DNA of 64,000 nucleotides. It comes from Paludisphaera rhizosphaerae (lineage in GTDB: Bacteria; Planctomycetota; Planctomycetia; Isosphaerales; Isosphaeraceae). Of the stretch, positions 19,911-30,897 are shown piece by piece. The stretch is from positions 62,001 through 126,000 of the forward strand of contig NZ_JAALCR010000011.1 in NCBI RefSeq assembly GCF_011065895.1, in the 5' to 3' direction. The position numbers and the translations under genes are program-made. The notes under the pieces are model-generated. The model had not been told where the DNA came from and ran no database searches. It was given only the letters and a program-made list of their open reading frames with translations. Every line of letters starts with the position of its first letter. The stretch's first letter is position 1.

Positions 19911-20393
19911 TCACCGCGAGGTCGCGGCCAGGTCTTCGGCCAAACGCTCGACGACCTCGCGGGTCAGGTGGCACGTGGTCCGGCGGCGGCGGCGGTCGGC
20001 CGGGTCGTAGGCGAAGCGCTCGACGCGGCAAATCCCGTCGCGACTCAGACGCACCTCATAGTAATTGCGCGCATCGCCCCGGCTGGTCGGGGTCTGGCTG
20101 CGAAGCTGCACTTCGCCCCGGCCGCCGTCGACCTCCAGGACGTGGAGCGGCTCCATCAGATAGGTGACCCTACGCGCGATGCGCTCGCCCCAGGCGTTCA
20201 ATTCCGGGGGCGACCATTCCTTGCGGTCGGTCGTCGCAAATTCGAGCCCGTCGAGAGCAACGCCCACAGCGTCCAGGGCGGCGATCTCCAGTGTTACTCG
20301 GTCGGGACCCTCGTCCACCGTGACGGAGCACGGCAGGTTGTAGGCCCGAGTGTTCTCGTCAAGCGCGGCGGCGATCTTTCGGCTCAGTGTCAT
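19911..20393 (-). CDS. Hypothetical protein coupled to SpoVR gene
   Basis: 160 residues from MTLSRKIAAALDENTRAY, with GGGAGG about eight bases upstream. The start lies 35 bp inside the end of spoVR in another frame, so translation is likely coupled. The sequence is a mixed alpha/beta protein (SVTVDEGPDRVTLEIAALD; YLMEPLHVLEVDGGRGEVQL; YYEVRLSRDGICRVERFAYD) with repeated strands, no Cys pairs and no membrane helix. I do not recognise the family. Its position as last gene in the PrkA/DUF444/SpoVR run suggests it works with SpoVR. Confidence 0.75.
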   Translation of the reverse strand: MTLSRKIAAALDENTRAYNLPCSVTVDEGPDRVTLEIAALDAVGVALDGLEFATTDRKEWSPPELNAWGERIARRVTYLMEPLHVLEVDGGRGEVQLRSQTPTSRGDARNYYEVRLSRDGICRVERFAYDPADRRRRRTTCHLTREVVERLAEDLAATSR

Positions 20394-21915
20394 GGGAAAC
20401 ACCTCCCAAGGGTCGGATCGAGTGATCGGTTCCGTCGAACGACAGCAAAGTGGGCCGCCCGTCGACGGTCGTCTCCAGGTGGACCGGGCGCGTCCAGAGG
20501 CGGTGAAGATGACGGAGAGTGTCCTGCGCGTAATCCAGCCGCAGGTCGACGCCGAAATGCTCCTGGCCCAGGTACATCTCACCGCGGTTGCGGTAGTTGC
20601 CGTCCCGAACTCGGATGATCGGCTGACCGAAGTTCGTCAGGTTGAAGAGAAGACGCTCCTTGATCTTCTTGAATTCGCGGCTTTCGATCTCGTACAGGTC
20701 GTTCTGCTCGTTGTGCTTGAAGCTGAAAAGGTTGTGGCGTTTGCAGAAGTCCTGCGTCAAAAACGTGTCGATGAACGTCACGTCGTTATGGATTCGACGA
20801 ACCTCGAAGATCTTCTGACGGCCGAGACCGAGCTGTTTATCCCAGCGTCGCTTCTCCTCGTAGTCGTCGCATTCCTCCCACTCGGCGCCGAACTGGCCCT
20901 TGTTCCAACGCTCCTCAATGTCGCGGAGCAGTTCGATGCCAATCTTGTACGGGTTGAGACGCCCGGGCTGGGTCGCCATCGTCCCCGAGTGGTGGTCGGC
21001 GTAATCAAGAAGCTCTGAGGAGTGCAGGAGCTTCTGGGTCATCATCGTCGAGTGCCAGAACGAGGCCCAGCCCTCGTTCATGATCTTGGTCTGGCCCTGG
21101 GGGGCGAAGTAATACGCCTCCTCGCGAATGATCGCCAGGACGTCGTGCTGCCACGGCTTGAGCGGGGCGTGCTCCAGCAGGAACAGAAGAACGTCGCGTT
21201 CCGGCCGTTCCGGGAACGACATCGGTTTGGCCTTCTGACGCTCGGCCTCCTTGAGCCGTTGTTCTTCCTTGAGAACGCCTGGCGGGTTGATGAAGTCGTC
21301 CATGTACGACTTGCTCTGGAACTTCGAGGGCCGGCTCTCCGCCTCGACACCCTCCTCGTCGAAGTCGTAGCGGCTGACGGGATCTCGCCGCTTGATGAGA
21401 GGCGAGTAGACGTCGATCAGGTTTTCCAGCGACAGGCACGAGTCGATGAAGCTCTCGACGGCGTCCTCGCCGAACCGCTCCATGTACGAACGGATCCGAC
21501 TGCCGTGGTTGGCCGTCTCGTCCATCATCTTGCGGTTCGTCTGGCTGAACCAAATGTTGTTCTTGAAGAAGTCGTTGTGGCCGTAGACATGGGCCATGAC
21601 CAGCTTCTGATCGACCAACTGATTGCAGCGCAGGAGGTAGGCGTAGCAGGGGTCGTTGTTGATGACCATCTCATAGATCTTCTGGAGCCCGTAGCGGTAG
21701 CCCTTGGAGAGCTGCTGGTACTCCATCCCGAACCGCCAGTGAGGGTAGCGGGTGGGGAATCCGCCGTAAGCGGCGATCATCGAGATCTCGTCGTAGTCGC
21801 AGACCTCGAAGATGCACTCATAGAAGTCGAGCCCGTACTCGCGGGCGTGGCCCTCGGTCTCGACCTGGATGGCCCTGAGGTCGGCGGGAAGGTCGTGGGT
21901 GTTGACGGTCGACAT
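20359..21915 (-). CDS. spoVR: SpoVR-family protein
   Basis: 518 residues, close to the family length. Recognisable stretches are GLDFYECIFEVCDYDEISMIAAYGGFPTR (pattern near the N-terminus), QKIYEMVINNDPCYAYLL, VMAHVYGHNDFFKNN, and a central HDVLAIIREEAYYFAPQGQTKIMNEGWA. These match SpoVR/YcgB proteins, named for a spore-cortex defect in Bacillus and found with PrkA and YeaH-type proteins in most Gram-negative bacteria; the molecular activity is unknown. Soluble, no signal peptide. Here it is fourth in the prkA-led series, with a Uma2 gene inserted before it and a small gene overlapping its 3' end. Confidence 0.95.
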   Translation of the reverse strand: MSTVNTHDLPADLRAIQVETEGHAREYGLDFYECIFEVCDYDEISMIAAYGGFPTRYPHWRFGMEYQQLSKGYRYGLQKIYEMVINNDPCYAYLLRCNQLVDQKLVMAHVYGHNDFFKNNIWFSQTNRKMMDETANHGSRIRSYMERFGEDAVESFIDSCLSLENLIDVYSPLIKRRDPVSRYDFDEEGVEAESRPSKFQSKSYMDDFINPPGVLKEEQRLKEAERQKAKPMSFPERPERDVLLFLLEHAPLKPWQHDVLAIIREEAYYFAPQGQTKIMNEGWASFWHSTMMTQKLLHSSELLDYADHHSGTMATQPGRLNPYKIGIELLRDIEERWNKGQFGAEWEECDDYEEKRRWDKQLGLGRQKIFEVRRIHNDVTFIDTFLTQDFCKRHNLFSFKHNEQNDLYEIESREFKKIKERLLFNLTNFGQPIIRVRDGNYRNRGEMYLGQEHFGVDLRLDYAQDTLRHLHRLWTRPVHLETTVDGRPTLLSFDGTDHSIRPLGGVSHDTEPKDRRRA

Positions 21916-21978
21916 GGCTCGGGTCTCTCGTCTCGGGAACTCTCGCGAATCTCAAGCCCGCGGTCGTGTCATCTCACT

Positions 21979-22659
21979 TCACGTCGCCGGCCCTCGAGGG
22001 CGTTTGGCGACGACCTCGGCGGCCCAGCGGCGGACCTCGTCCGCCCAGGCGGTGACGCCCGCCTCCATCGGCCGATTGATCCAGGAATGGACCTCGATGG
22101 CGCTGACGCCCGGGACGGCGATGCTCGCCTCAGTCTTGGCGTACCGGCCGTCCTCGCCGAGCGTCAGCATCACGATCTCGGTCGGGGTACAAATCCAAAC
22201 CTCAGGAACGCCCAGTCGACGGTAGACCTCAATCGCGTCGTCCGCGTCGTGGGTGACGACCACCTCCACGGCCAGGTCGGGAGGGGGATCGATCCGCAGA
22301 TCGATAACCGCTTTCCCCTGGATAAGGGCCCGGTTCGCGAGGTAGTAGGTCTCATCCCCTTCAACTCCACCTCGCTTACGCTTGCGGCGGAAGGTCGTCG
22401 ACCCGGCTGGAAGGAACGGCACGCCAAGCCCGGCGAGAGCCGACGCGATGAAATAGTCGAGAAGCTTTTTCAGGGTTTCATGCCGATAGGACGGGGACCC
22501 GAGCGACAGCCTCCCGTCGAGGTAGGTCATTCTGGGGAGGCTGCGTCCACCGCGAAGGCGGAGCATCGCGGCGTAGCCGGCCCAGTCGATCCCCTCAAGG
22601 GCGACGAGTTGGTCGCTCTGGGTCTCGGCCGTCGTCTCAGACGTCGTGATGGTCGCCAT
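21979..22659 (-). CDS. Uma2-family putative endonuclease
   Basis: 226 residues. The family core is present: YEAM-like entry (WAGYAAMLRLRGG), GSPSYRHETLKKLLDYFIASAL, then DLRIDPPPDLAVEVVVTHDADD with the catalytic-type D...EVV pattern of PD-(D/E)XK folds, and RLGVPEVWICTP. Uma2 (DUF820) proteins are abundant in planctomycetes and cyanobacteria; nuclease activity is predicted but rarely shown. It lies between DUF444 and spoVR, with 63 bp to the spoVR start, which is not part of the usual cluster and looks like an insertion that kept direction. Confidence 0.88.
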   Translation of the reverse strand: MATITTSETTAETQSDQLVALEGIDWAGYAAMLRLRGGRSLPRMTYLDGRLSLGSPSYRHETLKKLLDYFIASALAGLGVPFLPAGSTTFRRKRKRGGVEGDETYYLANRALIQGKAVIDLRIDPPPDLAVEVVVTHDADDAIEVYRRLGVPEVWICTPTEIVMLTLGEDGRYAKTEASIAVPGVSAIEVHSWINRPMEAGVTAWADEVRRWAAEVVAKRPRGPAT

Positions 22660-22711
22660 GAATCCTTCCTCTCCGTGTCACGCTCGGGTCCCTTCTCACC
22701 TCGATGGGCCC

Positions 22712-23815
22712 TTAACGCCCGCGCCCCAGGAATTCCTTGATCGATTCGTAGATGCCTTCCTTATTACGGATCTCGGACAGCGCCAGGTTCGGGACCTCGT
22801 CAAAAGCTTCTTCGAGTTCCCGGTAGAATTCGCCGGAGCCGTAGGGGCTTTCGACCTGGCCGTAGCAGAAGAGGTTGCACTTGGGGAGCAGTTGCTCACG
22901 GAGCAGCCCGATGCACTGGCGGTTGTCCTCTCCCCAGTTGTCGCCGTCGGAGAAGTGGAGGACGTAGATATTCCAGTCCATCGGCGAGTGATGCTCGTCG
23001 ATGATCTTGTTGGCCAGGTTGTAGGCGGAGCTGATCCGCGTGCCGCCGCTCTCGCGTGTGTGGTAGAACGTGTGCTCGTCCACCTCGCGGGCGACGGCGT
23101 CGTGGATGATGTAGCGGGTCGTCACCCCGTCGTACTGGCTCTTCAGCCAGGCGTCGATCCAGAAGGCCTCGGTCCGAACGATCTCCTTCTGGTCGTCGGT
23201 CATCGACCCGGAGACGTCCATCAGGTACAACACCACGGCGTTGAACTGGGGCGAGATGATCGGGTTCCAGGACCGGTAGAGCTTGTCCTCACGGATCGGA
23301 ATGACCAGCGGGTCGCGCGGGTCGTACTGGCTGGACGCGATCTGACGCCGAAGCGCTTTCTTGTAGGTGCGCTTGAAGTGGCGAAGGCTCTCGGGGCCGG
23401 TCTGGCGGATGCCCGTGTACTTGTCCTTCTCCTCGATGATGTTGGCCCGCCCTTTGGGCTCGATTCGCGGCAGCGCGAGTTCCTCGCCGAGGATCTGGGC
23501 GAGGTCGTCCATCGTCAACTCGACTTCGAGGATGTGCTGACCGGGAGCCTCGCCCGCGCCGGGGCCGGCCTCGCCGTCGCCGCCGCGGCCGATGGGCGTG
23601 CCGACGTCGCCGGGGCCCTGCCCCACACCGCCCCGGTTCTTCTCGCCGTAGCGGAATTCAGGGATCTCGATCTGGGGCAGAGGAATCGACACGAACTCGC
23701 CGCCGGTCTTGCCGATCATCTCGCCGTGCGTGATGTACTTGCGAAGATCGGATTTGATCTTGCCCCGAACGATTTGTTTGAAGCGACTGGCGTCGCGATC
23801 GATTTTTCGCACCAC
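22712..23815 (-). CDS. DUF444 (YeaH/YhbH) family VWA-like protein
   Basis: Starts at GTG 23815 ([16 protein letters not shown]), where homology to the family begins; the open frame extends 55 low-complexity codons upstream and an adjacent GTG is also possible. 367 residues. After an N-terminal basic region and Gly-rich loop, the von Willebrand A-like domain shows a complete MIDAS: DVSGS at about 200-204, GGTRISSAY, and FSDGDNW. YeaH-type proteins partner the PrkA kinase in stress and sporulation responses (family knowledge). It is 476 bp downstream of prkA, an unusually long gap, with a hairpin between. Confidence 0.93.
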
Positions 23816-24291
23816 GGCTGTAGAGCCCCCGCCGCTCGCTGGTTTGTTGGGTTTCCCGTCCTCGCGAAGTCCGACCGCGGCGCGACCGGGACGAAAACGC
23901 ACCCGCCGCGTCGGCCCGGCGCACGCGGAACGACGAACGCTCCGGGGATCGCCTGAGATCCGCCGGATTCCACTTGGCAAAGAGCGATGAAAAGTTCGTA
24001 GGTGATGACGACTGGAACGAGTCGAGACGGGCCGGACGACGAAGGGGTGGGCTTGAATTGCGGCTCGCGTCGAGGCTACTGGGCTCCAATCCCGGGGATC
24101 TCCGTCTCCTCAGCAAATTGTAGGCCGCGCGCCCAGGCGTCTTCAAGACGTCCCGTCTCTTCCGGCCTTACCGCATGGCGCGCGTGGTTTTCCGGCATCA
24201 CGACGCCCGACTTTCGGGCTCGTTCTGCCTAGTCCGCGTGCGGCCCGCGAGAAGGTCGGTGAGACCGTCGCGGGCCGCGCGAGGTGAAGCC
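23816..24291. other. 476-bp gap between prkA and DUF444 gene
   Basis: Frames here read as Arg/Ser-rich low-complexity products and are not supported. A GC-rich hairpin sits at 24240-24278 right after prkA. The DUF444 gene may have its own promoter in this gap. Confidence 0.4.
24240..24278 (-). terminator. GC-rich hairpin after prkA
   Basis: GCGGCCCGCGA (24240-24250) pairs perfectly with TCGCGGGCCGC (24268-24278) around a 17-base loop. There is no T-run, so it may attenuate rather than fully terminate. Confidence 0.5.
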
Positions 24292-26352
<2,061 letters not shown>

Positions 26353-26930: not shown

Positions 26931-28337
26931 TCAGCCGGCGTTCGGGATTGGCGCGGCTTCGATCTCGGACTCGGGCGACTCGGCGGCCCTCTCGACCTCC
27001 GCTGATCGAGCGACGGGCAAAACCTGTTCGGCCAGGACGATGAAGACGGCGAGAGTCCAGAGACCGACGGGGAGCGTCGCGTAGTGGGCGTAGGCGTCGG
27101 CGGCGGGAAGAACCCAGCCGGCCGGAGGAAGTATCTGAACCAGAGCGTAAGCGACCGCCGAAAGCCCCGCGCACGCAACGACGGCCATCGCCGTCGCGAC
27201 CGCCATTCTTCCACCCTCGCGGCGGAGGCTCCGGCGGAACCCCAGCCAGGCCTCTCCCCATCCGCCGCCGCTCCAGGCGATCGCCCCGACGATCCCCATC
27301 ACCACCAGCGAGGCGGTCTGAATCCAGACCAGTCCCGGCCCCAGGCTCCACCGCAGAACTCGGCCTGGCTCCGTCGCCATCCAGGAGGCCGGGAAATGCT
27401 GCGAGGCCAGCACCAACGCCGTCGCCGCATACCGGCCCGGCAAGGCGGCGAGGCATCCCAGACAGGCGGCTGGCATCAACCCGAACGCCCGTGAAGGATC
27501 GAAGCGCGAGCTGAAGTCCTCGCTCGGCTCGCCGTCGCGGATCTCCACGAGCACCCAGGCCAACAGAAAGCCGTCGCAGACCAGCATCAGAAAAGGAATG
27601 ATCGCCACTTCAATGAGCAGACAGTTTCCGACCGGAAGATCGCCGCCTCCCGCCAACCGGCAAAAGAGCCGGTACAGCAATTGGAGTCCCAGACATGTGC
27701 CGACGACGCCCTGCCACGCCGAGACGCCTTCCTGCTCGAAGCCGTTGAGCCTCAACGGTCCTCCCGCCGGACCGAGGCCCTTCGAGACCGCCCGGAGCCT
27801 CCCCGCCGAGAGGACGATCGCCAGGGCCGTGGCGAGAATCGGCAGCGAATCACCCAGTCCCGCCACGTCGCGCAAGGGTGTGACGGCGGCCGTCGCCGCG
27901 TGTTCGGCGACGAGTTCGACGGGCGTCCGCCCGCGCTTGAGCATCAGGAGATCCGATCGACCGCGCTCGGCGTCCTCGAAGAAAAAGCCGACGCACTGGG
28001 AGGCCGTCCAGGAAAGGACCGTCAGCGTCAGCAGAACCGTGACCATGCCGGCCGCCCGCCAGACGCGCGTCATGGCTTCGCGAACGAGCCGAACGTGTCC
28101 CGGAACATCCACGAGTTGCCGCAAGACGGCCCCCGGCCCCTGCACCAGCGTCGCCAGCAACGCCAGCAGCAGCGGCCCCACGACGATGATCCAGAGGATC
28201 TCCCAATCCGGAGCCGGCCGCGACGGCGAAAGCGTCAGGCCGCCGCACCATCGCCTTAAAGCGAGATAGGCCGCGGCCGCCGGGCTTCCGGCTCCCGTCG
28301 CCTGCGCCCAGATCCAGGGGGAGCCCAACGAACCCAT
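26931..28337 (-). CDS. Multi-pass membrane protein
   Basis: 468 residues from MGSLGSPWIW; 41 more open codons upstream are compositionally unlike the rest. About seven to nine hydrophobic helices are visible (ILWIIVVGPLLLALLATLV; AAGMVTVLLTLTVLSW; CLLIEVAIIPFLMLVCDGFLL, split across 20; AAACLGCLAALPG-type; VATAMAVVACAGLSAVAYAL; GLWTLAVFIVLAEQVL). Loops contain no known motif. The acidic C-terminus ends in the cytoplasm or periplasm. Function unknown; it could be a transporter-like or envelope protein. It is divergent from the next kinase gene. Confidence 0.75.
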   Translation of the reverse strand: MGSLGSPWIWAQATGAGSPAAAAYLALRRWCGGLTLSPSRPAPDWEILWIIVVGPLLLALLATLVQGPGAVLRQLVDVPGHVRLVREAMTRVWRAAGMVTVLLTLTVLSWTASQCVGFFFEDAERGRSDLLMLKRGRTPVELVAEHAATAAVTPLRDVAGLGDSLPILATALAIVLSAGRLRAVSKGLGPAGGPLRLNGFEQEGVSAWQGVVGTCLGLQLLYRLFCRLAGGGDLPVGNCLLIEVAIIPFLMLVCDGFLLAWVLVEIRDGEPSEDFSSRFDPSRAFGLMPAACLGCLAALPGRYAATALVLASQHFPASWMATEPGRVLRWSLGPGLVWIQTASLVVMGIVGAIAWSGGGWGEAWLGFRRSLRREGGRMAVATAMAVVACAGLSAVAYALVQILPPAGWVLPAADAYAHYATLPVGLWTLAVFIVLAEQVLPVARSAEVERAAESPESEIEAAPIPNAG

Positions 28338-28641
28338 CGGTTCACCGCCCGAAGCAGCCCCGGCCGCGGGTCGGGGACGCCCGCCGCGGCCCCCTTGCGC
28401 CTCGCCCCGCCTAACCTGCGACGAGTGTAATCGGCTCGGGTCGGCGACGCCAGCGCGCATCCCGCACGACCATCGGATTCCGCGATTGCGACCGTGCGAG
28501 ACGCGACGCGCGATTTGACGCCTGACCTTGAATATCGGCGCAACATCTGCTCAAAACAGAGGTTCGATGCCTGATTTCGTCCTGGCGGGCTTCAAGGCCT
28601 TCGCTTCCGGATCCTCGACCGCCGCCCGAGAGGTGTCGACA
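28338..28641. other. Divergent promoter gap
   Basis: 304 bp between the leftward membrane protein and the rightward kinase. An alternative kinase start at 28567 (ATG after AGAGG) lies within it. No other gene seen. Confidence 0.4.
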
Positions 28642-29895
28642 ATGCCCCCAACCGACGCAGCTTCGGAAACGCCGCCGACGATCCCGGGCTATGAGGTCCT
28701 CCGCCTCATCGGCATGGGAGGCATGGGTCGCGTGTACCTTGCGCGCCAGCGGACGCTGGGGCGAAACGTCTGCGTCAAATTCCTCGCCAGTCCGACCGGA
28801 GGGCCCACGGCTGAGGCCCGCGAGCGGTTCAGCCGCGAGGCGAAGATCCTGGCGATGGCCGCGCATCCTCACGTGCTGACCATCCTCGACTTCGGCGCCT
28901 CCCCCGAGGACGGCACGCCCTTCCTCGTCACCGAGTACATCGAGAACGGCGACCTCCGCAAGCTCCTGCGCGACGGTCGGCCGATTCCCACGCCCCGTCG
29001 CCGCGCGATCCTGATCCAGATCGGCCAGGCCCTCGTCTACCTCCACAACAAGGGAATCCTCCACCGCGACCTGAAGCCGGAGAACATCCTGACCCCGACC
29101 GACTCGCTCGTCAAAGTGGCCGACTTCGGCCTGGCCGTGCTCCAGGAGGATCGCGGCCTGTTGACGCAAACCAACCGCGGTCTGGGAACGCTGGTCTACG
29201 CCTCCCCCGAACAACAGGCTGGACGGGTCGTCGACGAGCGGTCCGACCAGTATTCACTGGCCGCCATCGCCTATGAGATGACGACCGGGAAACGTCCGGT
29301 GGGCTCGTTCAAGCCCCCTTCCGAGGTCTCCCCGGGAGGCAACGATCGACTGGACGCCGTCCTGATGAAAGCCCTGGCGCACGACCCTGAAGGACGTTAC
29401 GCCGATCTCGAGGTATTCCTCACCGAACTCGATCAGGCTCTGACGCCCGCCTCGGGAGTCCGCCGCCCGATCCTGGCCGCGGGCCTCGCCGCGGTCGTCC
29501 TGGCGACGGCCGCCCGATGGGCGTCGACTCTCAACGCCCCCGCCCCGGCGCCCCCGCCGATCGTGGCGCCGAAGGTGGACCCGCCCGCCCCTCAGCCCGA
29601 CCCCGAATCTCCCGAGCGCCACAAGCTGATCGCGTTGCGAGCCCTCGAGATCTGGAAAGCGCAGGGGGCTCCGGAGGGAGAAGCGGGCCGGGCCGTCGCC
29701 GATGAGAACTGGGCCAAGGCCTCACGCGAAATCCACGAGGCCATCCAACTTCGGGCCTTCAAAATCTGGCAGTCCCAGGGGAGCCCCCAGGGCGAGGCCG
29801 GTGCCCGGGTCGCCGATCCGAACCAGCGCAGGGCGGAGGTGGAGCTTCTCCAGGAAGCCCTCAACGCGGCCCCGCCGGCTCCCCCCGCCCCATAG
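28642..29895 (+). CDS. Ser/Thr protein kinase with two C-terminal DUF2934-like repeats
   Basis: 417 residues from MPPTDAASE, with GAGAGGTG six bases upstream; an upstream ATG at 28567 also has AGAGG. Kinase domain about 17-270: GMGGMGRVY (23-31), Lys46, HRDLKPEN with Asp143, DFG (161-163), ASPE. One membrane helix (about 276-292, ILAAGLAAVVLATAA) follows, then a Pro-rich spacer. Two repeats close the protein at about 326-358 and 366-402, each with (R)ALEIWKAQGAPEGEA or RAFKIWQSQGSPQGEAG. This helix plus 'GxPxGxx' turn resembles DUF2934, usually a short stand-alone domain. The kinase and repeats are on opposite sides of the membrane by this topology. Confidence 0.92.
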   Translation: MPPTDAASETPPTIPGYEVLRLIGMGGMGRVYLARQRTLGRNVCVKFLASPTGGPTAEARERFSREAKILAMAAHPHVLTILDFGASPEDGTPFLVTEYIENGDLRKLLRDGRPIPTPRRRAILIQIGQALVYLHNKGILHRDLKPENILTPTDSLVKVADFGLAVLQEDRGLLTQTNRGLGTLVYASPEQQAGRVVDERSDQYSLAAIAYEMTTGKRPVGSFKPPSEVSPGGNDRLDAVLMKALAHDPEGRYADLEVFLTELDQALTPASGVRRPILAAGLAAVVLATAARWASTLNAPAPAPPPIVAPKVDPPAPQPDPESPERHKLIALRALEIWKAQGAPEGEAGRAVADENWAKASREIHEAIQLRAFKIWQSQGSPQGEAGARVADPNQRRAEVELLQEALNAAPPAPPAP

Positions 29896-30228: not shown

Positions 30229-30897
30229 ATGAATAAGCACCGATTCGTCCCCGAGGGCGTAGCCCCGATGGAGGACCGCGTCGTCCTCAACGGCGGCGGA
30301 TTCAAGTTCCCGGCCGTCGCGGGCGGGGCCAATTCCCTGGGGATGCACGGCGCGTTCGTGCTCACGAGCAAGACCTACGCGGAGGTCCAGGCCGCGGTGA
30401 ACACGGCGATCGTGAACTTCACCCGCAACGCCCTGGCGCTCTATGACAAGGAAGGGGGCTTCACCGACGCCTTCAACTCGAAGGTCGGCGTCGGGACGCT
30501 CGGGAGCGGCTCGGCATCGTACCTGTATGCGTCGGGCACGGCCCTGGCCCACATCGACGCTCGGATGGCCGCCCTTGAGGCTCGCCTCCCCTACGGCCGC
30601 GGCCTGGGGACGAACAACCCGACGGGAGGCGCCGGGCTCTCCAACTTCACGGCCCAGACGAGCACAAACCCGGCGCTGACGGACGACGGCGGCCAATCGG
30701 TGGCGGAACTGCTTGAAACCGCGATCACCACAGCCACGACCCGATCCGAGCTGGCCGCGAACCTGGCGAGCGTCCGGACCGAGGTTCTGAGCTGGGGGAA
30801 CAACGGGAACACGGTGGGGATCCTTCCCGAGTACGTCGTGGCCTTCGGTCCAGCCGGCTCGAAAGACTTCGGCACCATGAACTCGAAGTCGCATTAA
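30229..30897 (+). CDS. Secreted-type protein with N-terminal MEDRVVLN motif
   Basis: 222 residues from MNKHRFVPEG, with AGGAG nine bases upstream. The N-terminus reads EGVAPMEDRVVLNGG, a form of the 'LExRxxLS' motif found near the start of many planctomycete extracellular proteins instead of an ordinary signal peptide (recalled). The remainder is a helical, Ala/Thr-rich region (YAEVQAAVNTAIVNFTRNAL; AELLETAITTATTRSELAAN) of unknown fold. No catalytic motif. Probably surface-exposed. Confidence 0.7.
   Translation: MNKHRFVPEGVAPMEDRVVLNGGGFKFPAVAGGANSLGMHGAFVLTSKTYAEVQAAVNTAIVNFTRNALALYDKEGGFTDAFNSKVGVGTLGSGSASYLYASGTALAHIDARMAALEARLPYGRGLGTNNPTGGAGLSNFTAQTSTNPALTDDGGQSVAELLETAITTATTRSELAANLASVRTEVLSWGNNGNTVGILPEYVVAFGPAGSKDFGTMNSKSH

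Follow-up and report, generated by a model that had tools for sequence, protein, structure and literature searches.

The window analyzed here is a stretch of 64,000 nt from Paludisphaera rhizosphaerae, and Table 1 shows the layout of one of its ORFs, which in the window translation opens with ATG and encodes 417 residues; an alternative, longer reading begins at a TTG codon at 28528. The protein is assigned to the Hanks-type Ser/Thr kinases by its match to the Pkinase profile (Pfam, E 9.8e-43) together with the glycine loop, HRD, and DFG motifs, which are marks of catalytic kinases. HRDLKPEN, DFG, and the glycines of the loop are invariant in the alignment of the nine kinases of the same architecture described below, whose start codons, like those of the other relatives, were picked by one rule of this analysis. 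Since the glycine loop, HRDLKPEN, and DFG are all present, the window kinase is probably active.

Table 1. Features of the kinase gene in the 64,000-nt window (window coordinates).
Feature	Position	Strand	Basis
Whole ORF of the Hanks-type Ser/Thr kinase (417 aa): kinase domain first, then one predicted membrane helix, a linker rich in proline, and the DUF2934 pair	28642..29895	+	Translation, Pfam
Pkinase domain, residues 17-221	28690..29304	+	Pfam; glycine loop, HRDLKPEN, and DFG in translation
Predicted membrane helix, residues 277-295	29470..29526	+	Hydropathy
Proline-rich linker, poorly conserved	29527..29607	+	Pairwise identity over residues 268-320
DUF2934 repeat 1, residues 325-365, NWxxA kept before helix 2	29614..29736	+	Pfam, whole-genome search
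DUF2934 repeat 2, about residues 366-405, second Trp replaced in 9/9 same-architecture proteins	29737..29856	+	Alignments

The initial annotation read the protein as a kinase ending in two DUF2934-like repeats and named a profile comparison as the check. The whole protein indeed matches DUF2934 in Pfam at 35.1 bits against a cut-off of 22 (E 1e-8), with repeat 1 as the best stretch. Two stretches are found at E<=1 and a single one at E<=0.01, so repeat 2 taken alone appears to be a weak DUF2934 match. Its assignment is supported by the alignment with repeat 1 (score 100; 2000 shuffles of repeat 2 gave 51 at most) and by its conservation in the nine same-architecture proteins. Low complexity, which would have spoken against the repeats, does not describe the tail, because the nine proteins agree fully in 20 of its 89 columns. 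The mean pairwise identity among these proteins (36 pairs) is 61.2% for the kinase domain, 27.2% for helix plus linker (residues 268-320), 53.6% for repeat 1, 49.7% for repeat 2, and 30.1% for the C-end; the repeats thus come close to the kinase domain in conservation, whereas the helix and linker diverge. Ahead of the second helix all nine proteins have NW in repeat 1 and N without W in repeat 2, which shows that each hairpin keeps a form of its own. A model of the tail from the single sequence (pLDDT 73, pTM 0.38) places helices at about residues 324-340, 347-378, 385-391, and 393-409, which predicts a helical tail broken at both GxPxG turns. A fold search with this model returned one PDB match, at E 3.9, and nothing convincing. 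Against the sequences of solved structures, the best hit of a tail profile was a coagulation-factor-binding protein (E 0.26), taken as chance, and that of a profile of 60 DUF2934 domains was a partial match to a protease inhibitor (E 0.021), also rejected; a PHROGs search gave no match.

Topology was judged from hydropathy: in each of 14 proteins, residues 200-400 were scanned for the 19-mer of highest hydrophobicity. This 19-mer sits directly after the kinase domain in all 14 and scores at least 1.9 (Kyte-Doolittle) in 12 of them, compared with best values of 1.0-1.54 elsewhere in the same proteins. The window protein has the lowest value of the set, 1.65 in a range of 1.65-2.78. It has two basic residues in the 15 positions before the stretch and zero in the 15 after it; an excess of basic residues before the stretch is seen in 10/14 proteins, the reverse in three (G028, G029, and G043), and a tie in one (G011). 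In the main text of a survey of planctomycete kinases, 70-80% of these enzymes have transmembrane regions, mostly single, with kinase domains predicted to face the cytoplasm and the sulfatase-modifying domain placed mostly in the periplasm (PMC11032199). DUF2934 is not named in that main text, where DUF1080 is the sole DUF-word (PMC11032199).

The search for other kinases with this tail, also proposed in the initial annotation, bore fruit. Forty-five genomes of the family were searched with the whole protein, and the loci of the best matches, the ones that were read, yielded nine proteins with the order kinase, helix, linker, and two DUF2934 repeats: the window protein and others from eight further genomes. 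Carriers comprise 6/6 genus genomes searched (the window's and G028-G032), two of three genomes in group g2 (G001 and G002), and one of two in group g6 (G008). Of the four DUF2934 places at E<=0.001 in the window's genome, the one described here is the only one in a kinase. Run against the 45 family genomes, the DUF2934 profile matched in 30. This profile search is poorly sensitive to the tail: it lists four of the nine kinases and misses those of G002, G008, G028, G029, and G032, so that further ones could be missed. Among 32 family DUF2934 loci read besides the window's, a kinase motif occurs in two, those of G040 and G042, whose proteins consist of a kinase followed by DUF2934 (two and three stretches) and then an FGE-sulfatase domain (Pfam). 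When 14 aligned relatives were scanned at E<=0.01, DUF2934 was present in 11 and the FGE-sulfatase family PF03781 in five; the related kinases at L014, L015, and L017 have the FGE domain without DUF2934. In a further Planctomycetota kinase, L071, the outer position gives a weak NUDIX match (E 2e-4, 21.8 bits with a cut-off of 21.1). In this kinase (L071:5989-7404) the NUDIX-like domain comes after the hydrophobic stretch, an odd site for a nucleotide hydrolase.

A kinase-domain tree of 37 rows places these 15 rows in one supported set (100/99), within which the outer part is a DUF2934 pair, two to three DUF2934 stretches plus FGE, FGE, or a NUDIX-like domain. Because cousins carry DUF2934 with FGE, FGE alone, or a NUDIX-like domain, this kinase subfamily appears to swap its outer part. 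Eight of the nine paired-DUF2934 kinases form a supported clade (100/97), and the ninth, from G008, groups with the FGE kinases with weak support (85/83). The presence of DUF2934 on the tree takes at least three changes, and the AU test does not reject a topology that unites all 11 DUF2934 kinases in one clade (p-AU 0.08). In a wider search, a tail profile matched 7/392 genomes of a phylum sample at E<=0.001, a sample with few family genomes and, in the rows listed, at most 13 candidates scored per genome; the six matches besides the window's were weak, reaching 31 bits at best in frames of 60-149 aa. These low-sensitivity searches found no paired-DUF2934 kinase outside the family, and absence is not proven by them. 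The catalytic cysteines of FGE are expected in the region after GGS[WF]. In the FGE-like outer domains of the cousins (L016, L063, L014, L015, and L017) the 13 residues that follow GGS[WF] are free of cysteine, and two of the five have one at the 14th residue. With the expected catalytic cysteines missing, these domains may serve in binding rather than in catalysis.

Among known systems, the best NCBIfam match of the window kinase domain is the family of PknB/Stk1 PASTA kinases (NF033483, E 3.7e-67), which it falls short of joining at 227.6 bits with a cut-off of 450 and a match that spans residues 17-270. PknB is a single-pass protein with a repeated outer PASTA module behind the membrane helix. 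The window protein resembles it in its predicted single-pass layout with a repeated outer module, and differs in that no PASTA is among its Pfam matches and DUF2934 takes that place. Apart from the paired-DUF2934 set, its nearest relatives among the tree rows are the kinases with FGE-sulfatase (SUMF1-like) domains; it has no PF03781, whereas two of these cousins carry both DUF2934 and FGE. With the small DUF2934 proteins (PF11154) it shares, above the Pfam cut-off, a hairpin motif with a GxPxG turn, but those proteins are short and free-standing and here the motif stands in tandem behind a predicted helix, with repeat 2 diverged.

The gene neighborhood of the kinase, in which seven neighboring proteins were also scanned with Pfam, is kept in 5/5 same-genus genomes and in 0/5 of the other genomes compared. 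The flanking genes were dropped as a functional clue since their conservation is limited to the genus. Genes for SpoVR, DUF444, and PrkA (Pfam) adjoin each other near the kinase (20359-26352, minus strand), and PrkA plus DUF444 follow the same pattern of 5/5 same-genus genomes and 0/5 others. The kinase is flanked by a probable membrane protein of 509 aa (26931-28460, minus strand) and a 221-aa protein (30232-30897, plus strand), both without a Pfam match at E<=0.001 and both kept in 5/5 same-genus genomes. Inspection by eye of the window ORFs of at least 250 aa between 16000 and 44000, together with the Pfam scan of the seven neighbors, revealed no glycogen gene beside the kinase.

We also examined DUF2934 in other proteins. 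The statement in the initial annotation that the family is normally small and free-standing is borne out outside the window's phylum. DUF2934 occurs in 49/200 genomes of Pseudomonadota (the phylum of a Ramlibacter genome), where the listed places do not exceed 309 aa, and in 21/119 genomes of the phylum of an Acidobacteriaceae genome (G450), with frames of at most 268 aa. In the window's own phylum it was found in 45/292 genomes. The commonest DUF2934 protein in the family has about 300 aa and CxxC pairs (24 of the 32 loci read); L001:1408-2340 (plus strand) and 23 similar loci have an N-terminal DUF2934 followed by the CxxC pairs, and L001 gives a weak HNH_5 match (E 0.008, below its cut-off). 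Ten long frames were fetched, namely eight others of at least 395 aa listed for the phylum, L198 from the family, and L200, and none of the ten has a kinase HRD motif. At Pfam E<=1e-4 the fusion partners are a P-type ATPase (L192), a 4-alpha-glucanotransferase (L193), PRC-barrel (L196), PAS-GAF-SpoIIE (L198), and Hsp20 (L200); L191, a masked frame resembling an ATPase, matches a HAD hydrolase, DUF2934 stands alone in L194, L195, and L199, and nothing was found in L197. The long frame of L195 may have arisen by chance. Fused to such different partners, the module looks promiscuous. The PAS-GAF-SpoIIE phosphatase with its N-terminal DUF2934 (L198:1386-3236, minus strand) is a second signaling protein with the module, and the 4-alpha-glucanotransferase with a C-terminal DUF2934 (L193:1948-3807, minus strand) agrees with the glycogen gene link described below. 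At some plasmid places DUF2934 genes adjoin stress-type genes (for example CsbD, CBS, universal stress protein, and catalase). The published mentions retrieved by a literature search, each made in passing, give no function for DUF2934.

The initial annotation took the fusion to a kinase as a hint that DUF2934 acts in signal input. What stands of this is the position, the tail occupying the site that input domains take in receptor kinases. Fusion by itself proves no sensory role and is too common to disclose one, because other partners of DUF2934 include a P-type ATPase, Hsp20, MalQ, PRC-barrel, and a SpoIIE phosphatase, and several of these are not signal-input proteins. From position, conservation, and domain swapping we infer that the tail could provide signal input. 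We observed which domains are present, that their order and both hairpins are conserved, and that related kinases exchange their outer parts, and we regard it as moderately probable that the window protein is a single-pass receptor-type Ser/Thr kinase. Its N-terminal kinase domain would lie in the cytoplasm, a single helix would cross the membrane, and two diverged DUF2934 helical hairpins would form an input module on the outside. The hairpin pair may bind an envelope ligand or a partner protein, and such binding would alter dimerization and, through it, kinase autophosphorylation. Against this layout, DUF2934 outside the membrane would be unusual, as its other recognizable fusions, to MalQ, Hsp20, SpoIIE, PRC, and the N-terminus of a P-type ATPase, look cytoplasmic. 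The least hydrophobic helix of 14, the reversed charge bias in 3/14, a tail model built on one sequence with a pTM of 0.38 and a sole fold match at E 3.9, and a gene order kept within the genus alone also count against it.

The DUF2934 pair could instead be a general adaptor or dimerization module that sets the location or assembly of the kinase and senses no small ligand. The very different fusion partners, the predicted helical structure, and the stress-type gene neighbors at some plasmid places are what such a module might show, but in these kinases the pair stands beside or instead of other outer domains, and repeats 1 and 2 keep their own, separately conserved differences; on balance we consider the adaptor role rather unlikely. 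If the hydrophobic stretch were no true membrane span, or the tail otherwise cytoplasmic, the hairpins would dock substrates by the kinase. The weak window helix (1.65), the charge bias reversed in 3/14, and the presumed cytoplasmic setting of DUF2934 in other proteins fit this, yet the stretch occupies the same site in 14/14 proteins, with at least 1.9 in 12 and a kinase-side basic excess in 10, and we hold docking to be highly improbable. Least credible of all is a tail left over as a stalk or spacer after an ancestral kinase-DUF2934-FGE protein lost its FGE domain: DUF2934 plus FGE cousins exist and the AU test allows one clade of the 11 DUF2934 kinases (p-AU 0.08), but a spacer should drift like the linker (27% identity) and the repeats stay at 50-54%.

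Returning to the receptor layout, a lead on the type of ligand came from DUF7067 (PF23229), a family of the plant alpha-glucan water dikinase with weak similarity to DUF2934. Four of the 14 kinases match DUF7067 at E<=0.01, all below its cut-off (best E 0.0014, 18.8 bits against 27). In a test set of 60 domains drawn at random from 117 DUF2934 domains, with the kinase tails left out, DUF7067 is matched at E<=1 by 20 domains (best 1.8e-5) compared with 0/60 shuffles; the 20 are mutually related and do not count as 20 independent results. DUF2934 itself aside, no other family matches more than 2/60 of these domains. The reverse search with DUF7067 against the 45 genomes gave three matches at E<=0.01 and none above the cut-off. 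Two fall at DUF2934 places, namely the kinase tail of G008 and a small protein of G037, and the best of the three (2.7e-4) is a frame of 886 aa from the window's genome that is not DUF2934. Among 14 control genomes one had a match, Thermus composti, below the cut-off. Homology between DUF2934 and DUF7067 is likely on these profile matches, though not proven.

Gene context was examined with a panel of GlgX, TreZ, MalQ, TreY, TreS, and GlgB (tblastn, E<=1e-15, at least 120 residues) at the best-scoring DUF2934 place of each of 40 of the 49 Pseudomonadota genomes with a match, eight of the regions being shortened by contig ends. In 8/40 genomes malQ, treY, or glgX lies within about 610 bases of the DUF2934 gene, and in 0/40 regions did a panel match occur solely beyond 3 kb. 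Four of the eight have the order treZ-malQ-treY-[DUF2934]-glgX; in the other four malQ adjoins [DUF2934] with glgX and glgB near. The DUF2934 gene shares its strand with the nearest neighbors in all eight glycogen-type places. In a paired control of 20 genomes, with control regions at hand-chosen round-number positions on long contigs, glycogen-type genes were present in 2/20 DUF2934 regions and 0/20 control regions, a small contrast. For small DUF2934 genes on plasmids, glgX is adjacent in 3/13 places, read by eye from annotation tables, and the rest of the 13 places opened show no common theme. The glycogen link concerns part of the DUF2934 family, and most members lie elsewhere. One could propose that bacterial DUF2934 is related to a module of the plant glucan water dikinase and acts in alpha-glucan metabolism by binding maltodextrins or the enzymes that handle them, and that the window kinase and its orthologues are envelope receptors for glucans or a glucan-bound partner; taken together we judge this distinctly unlikely, and a glucan-type ligand for the window kinase is only a lead.

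The architecture of the window kinase is genuine and conserved, and the protein is probably a variation on an established type of receptor kinase. For most planctomycete membrane kinases no input is known. Planctomycete genomes are rich in such kinases according to the main text of the survey (PMC11032199). A conserved kinase with two small hairpins of an uncharacterized family on the outside, if the topology is as predicted, offers a compact test case. The most useful outcome is the alpha-glucan lead on DUF2934, since its position in some glycogen-trehalose clusters and its likeness to a plant starch-phosphorylating enzyme give a concrete hypothesis for the family. DUF2934 is widespread yet uncharacterized, and this by-product may matter more than the kinase itself.
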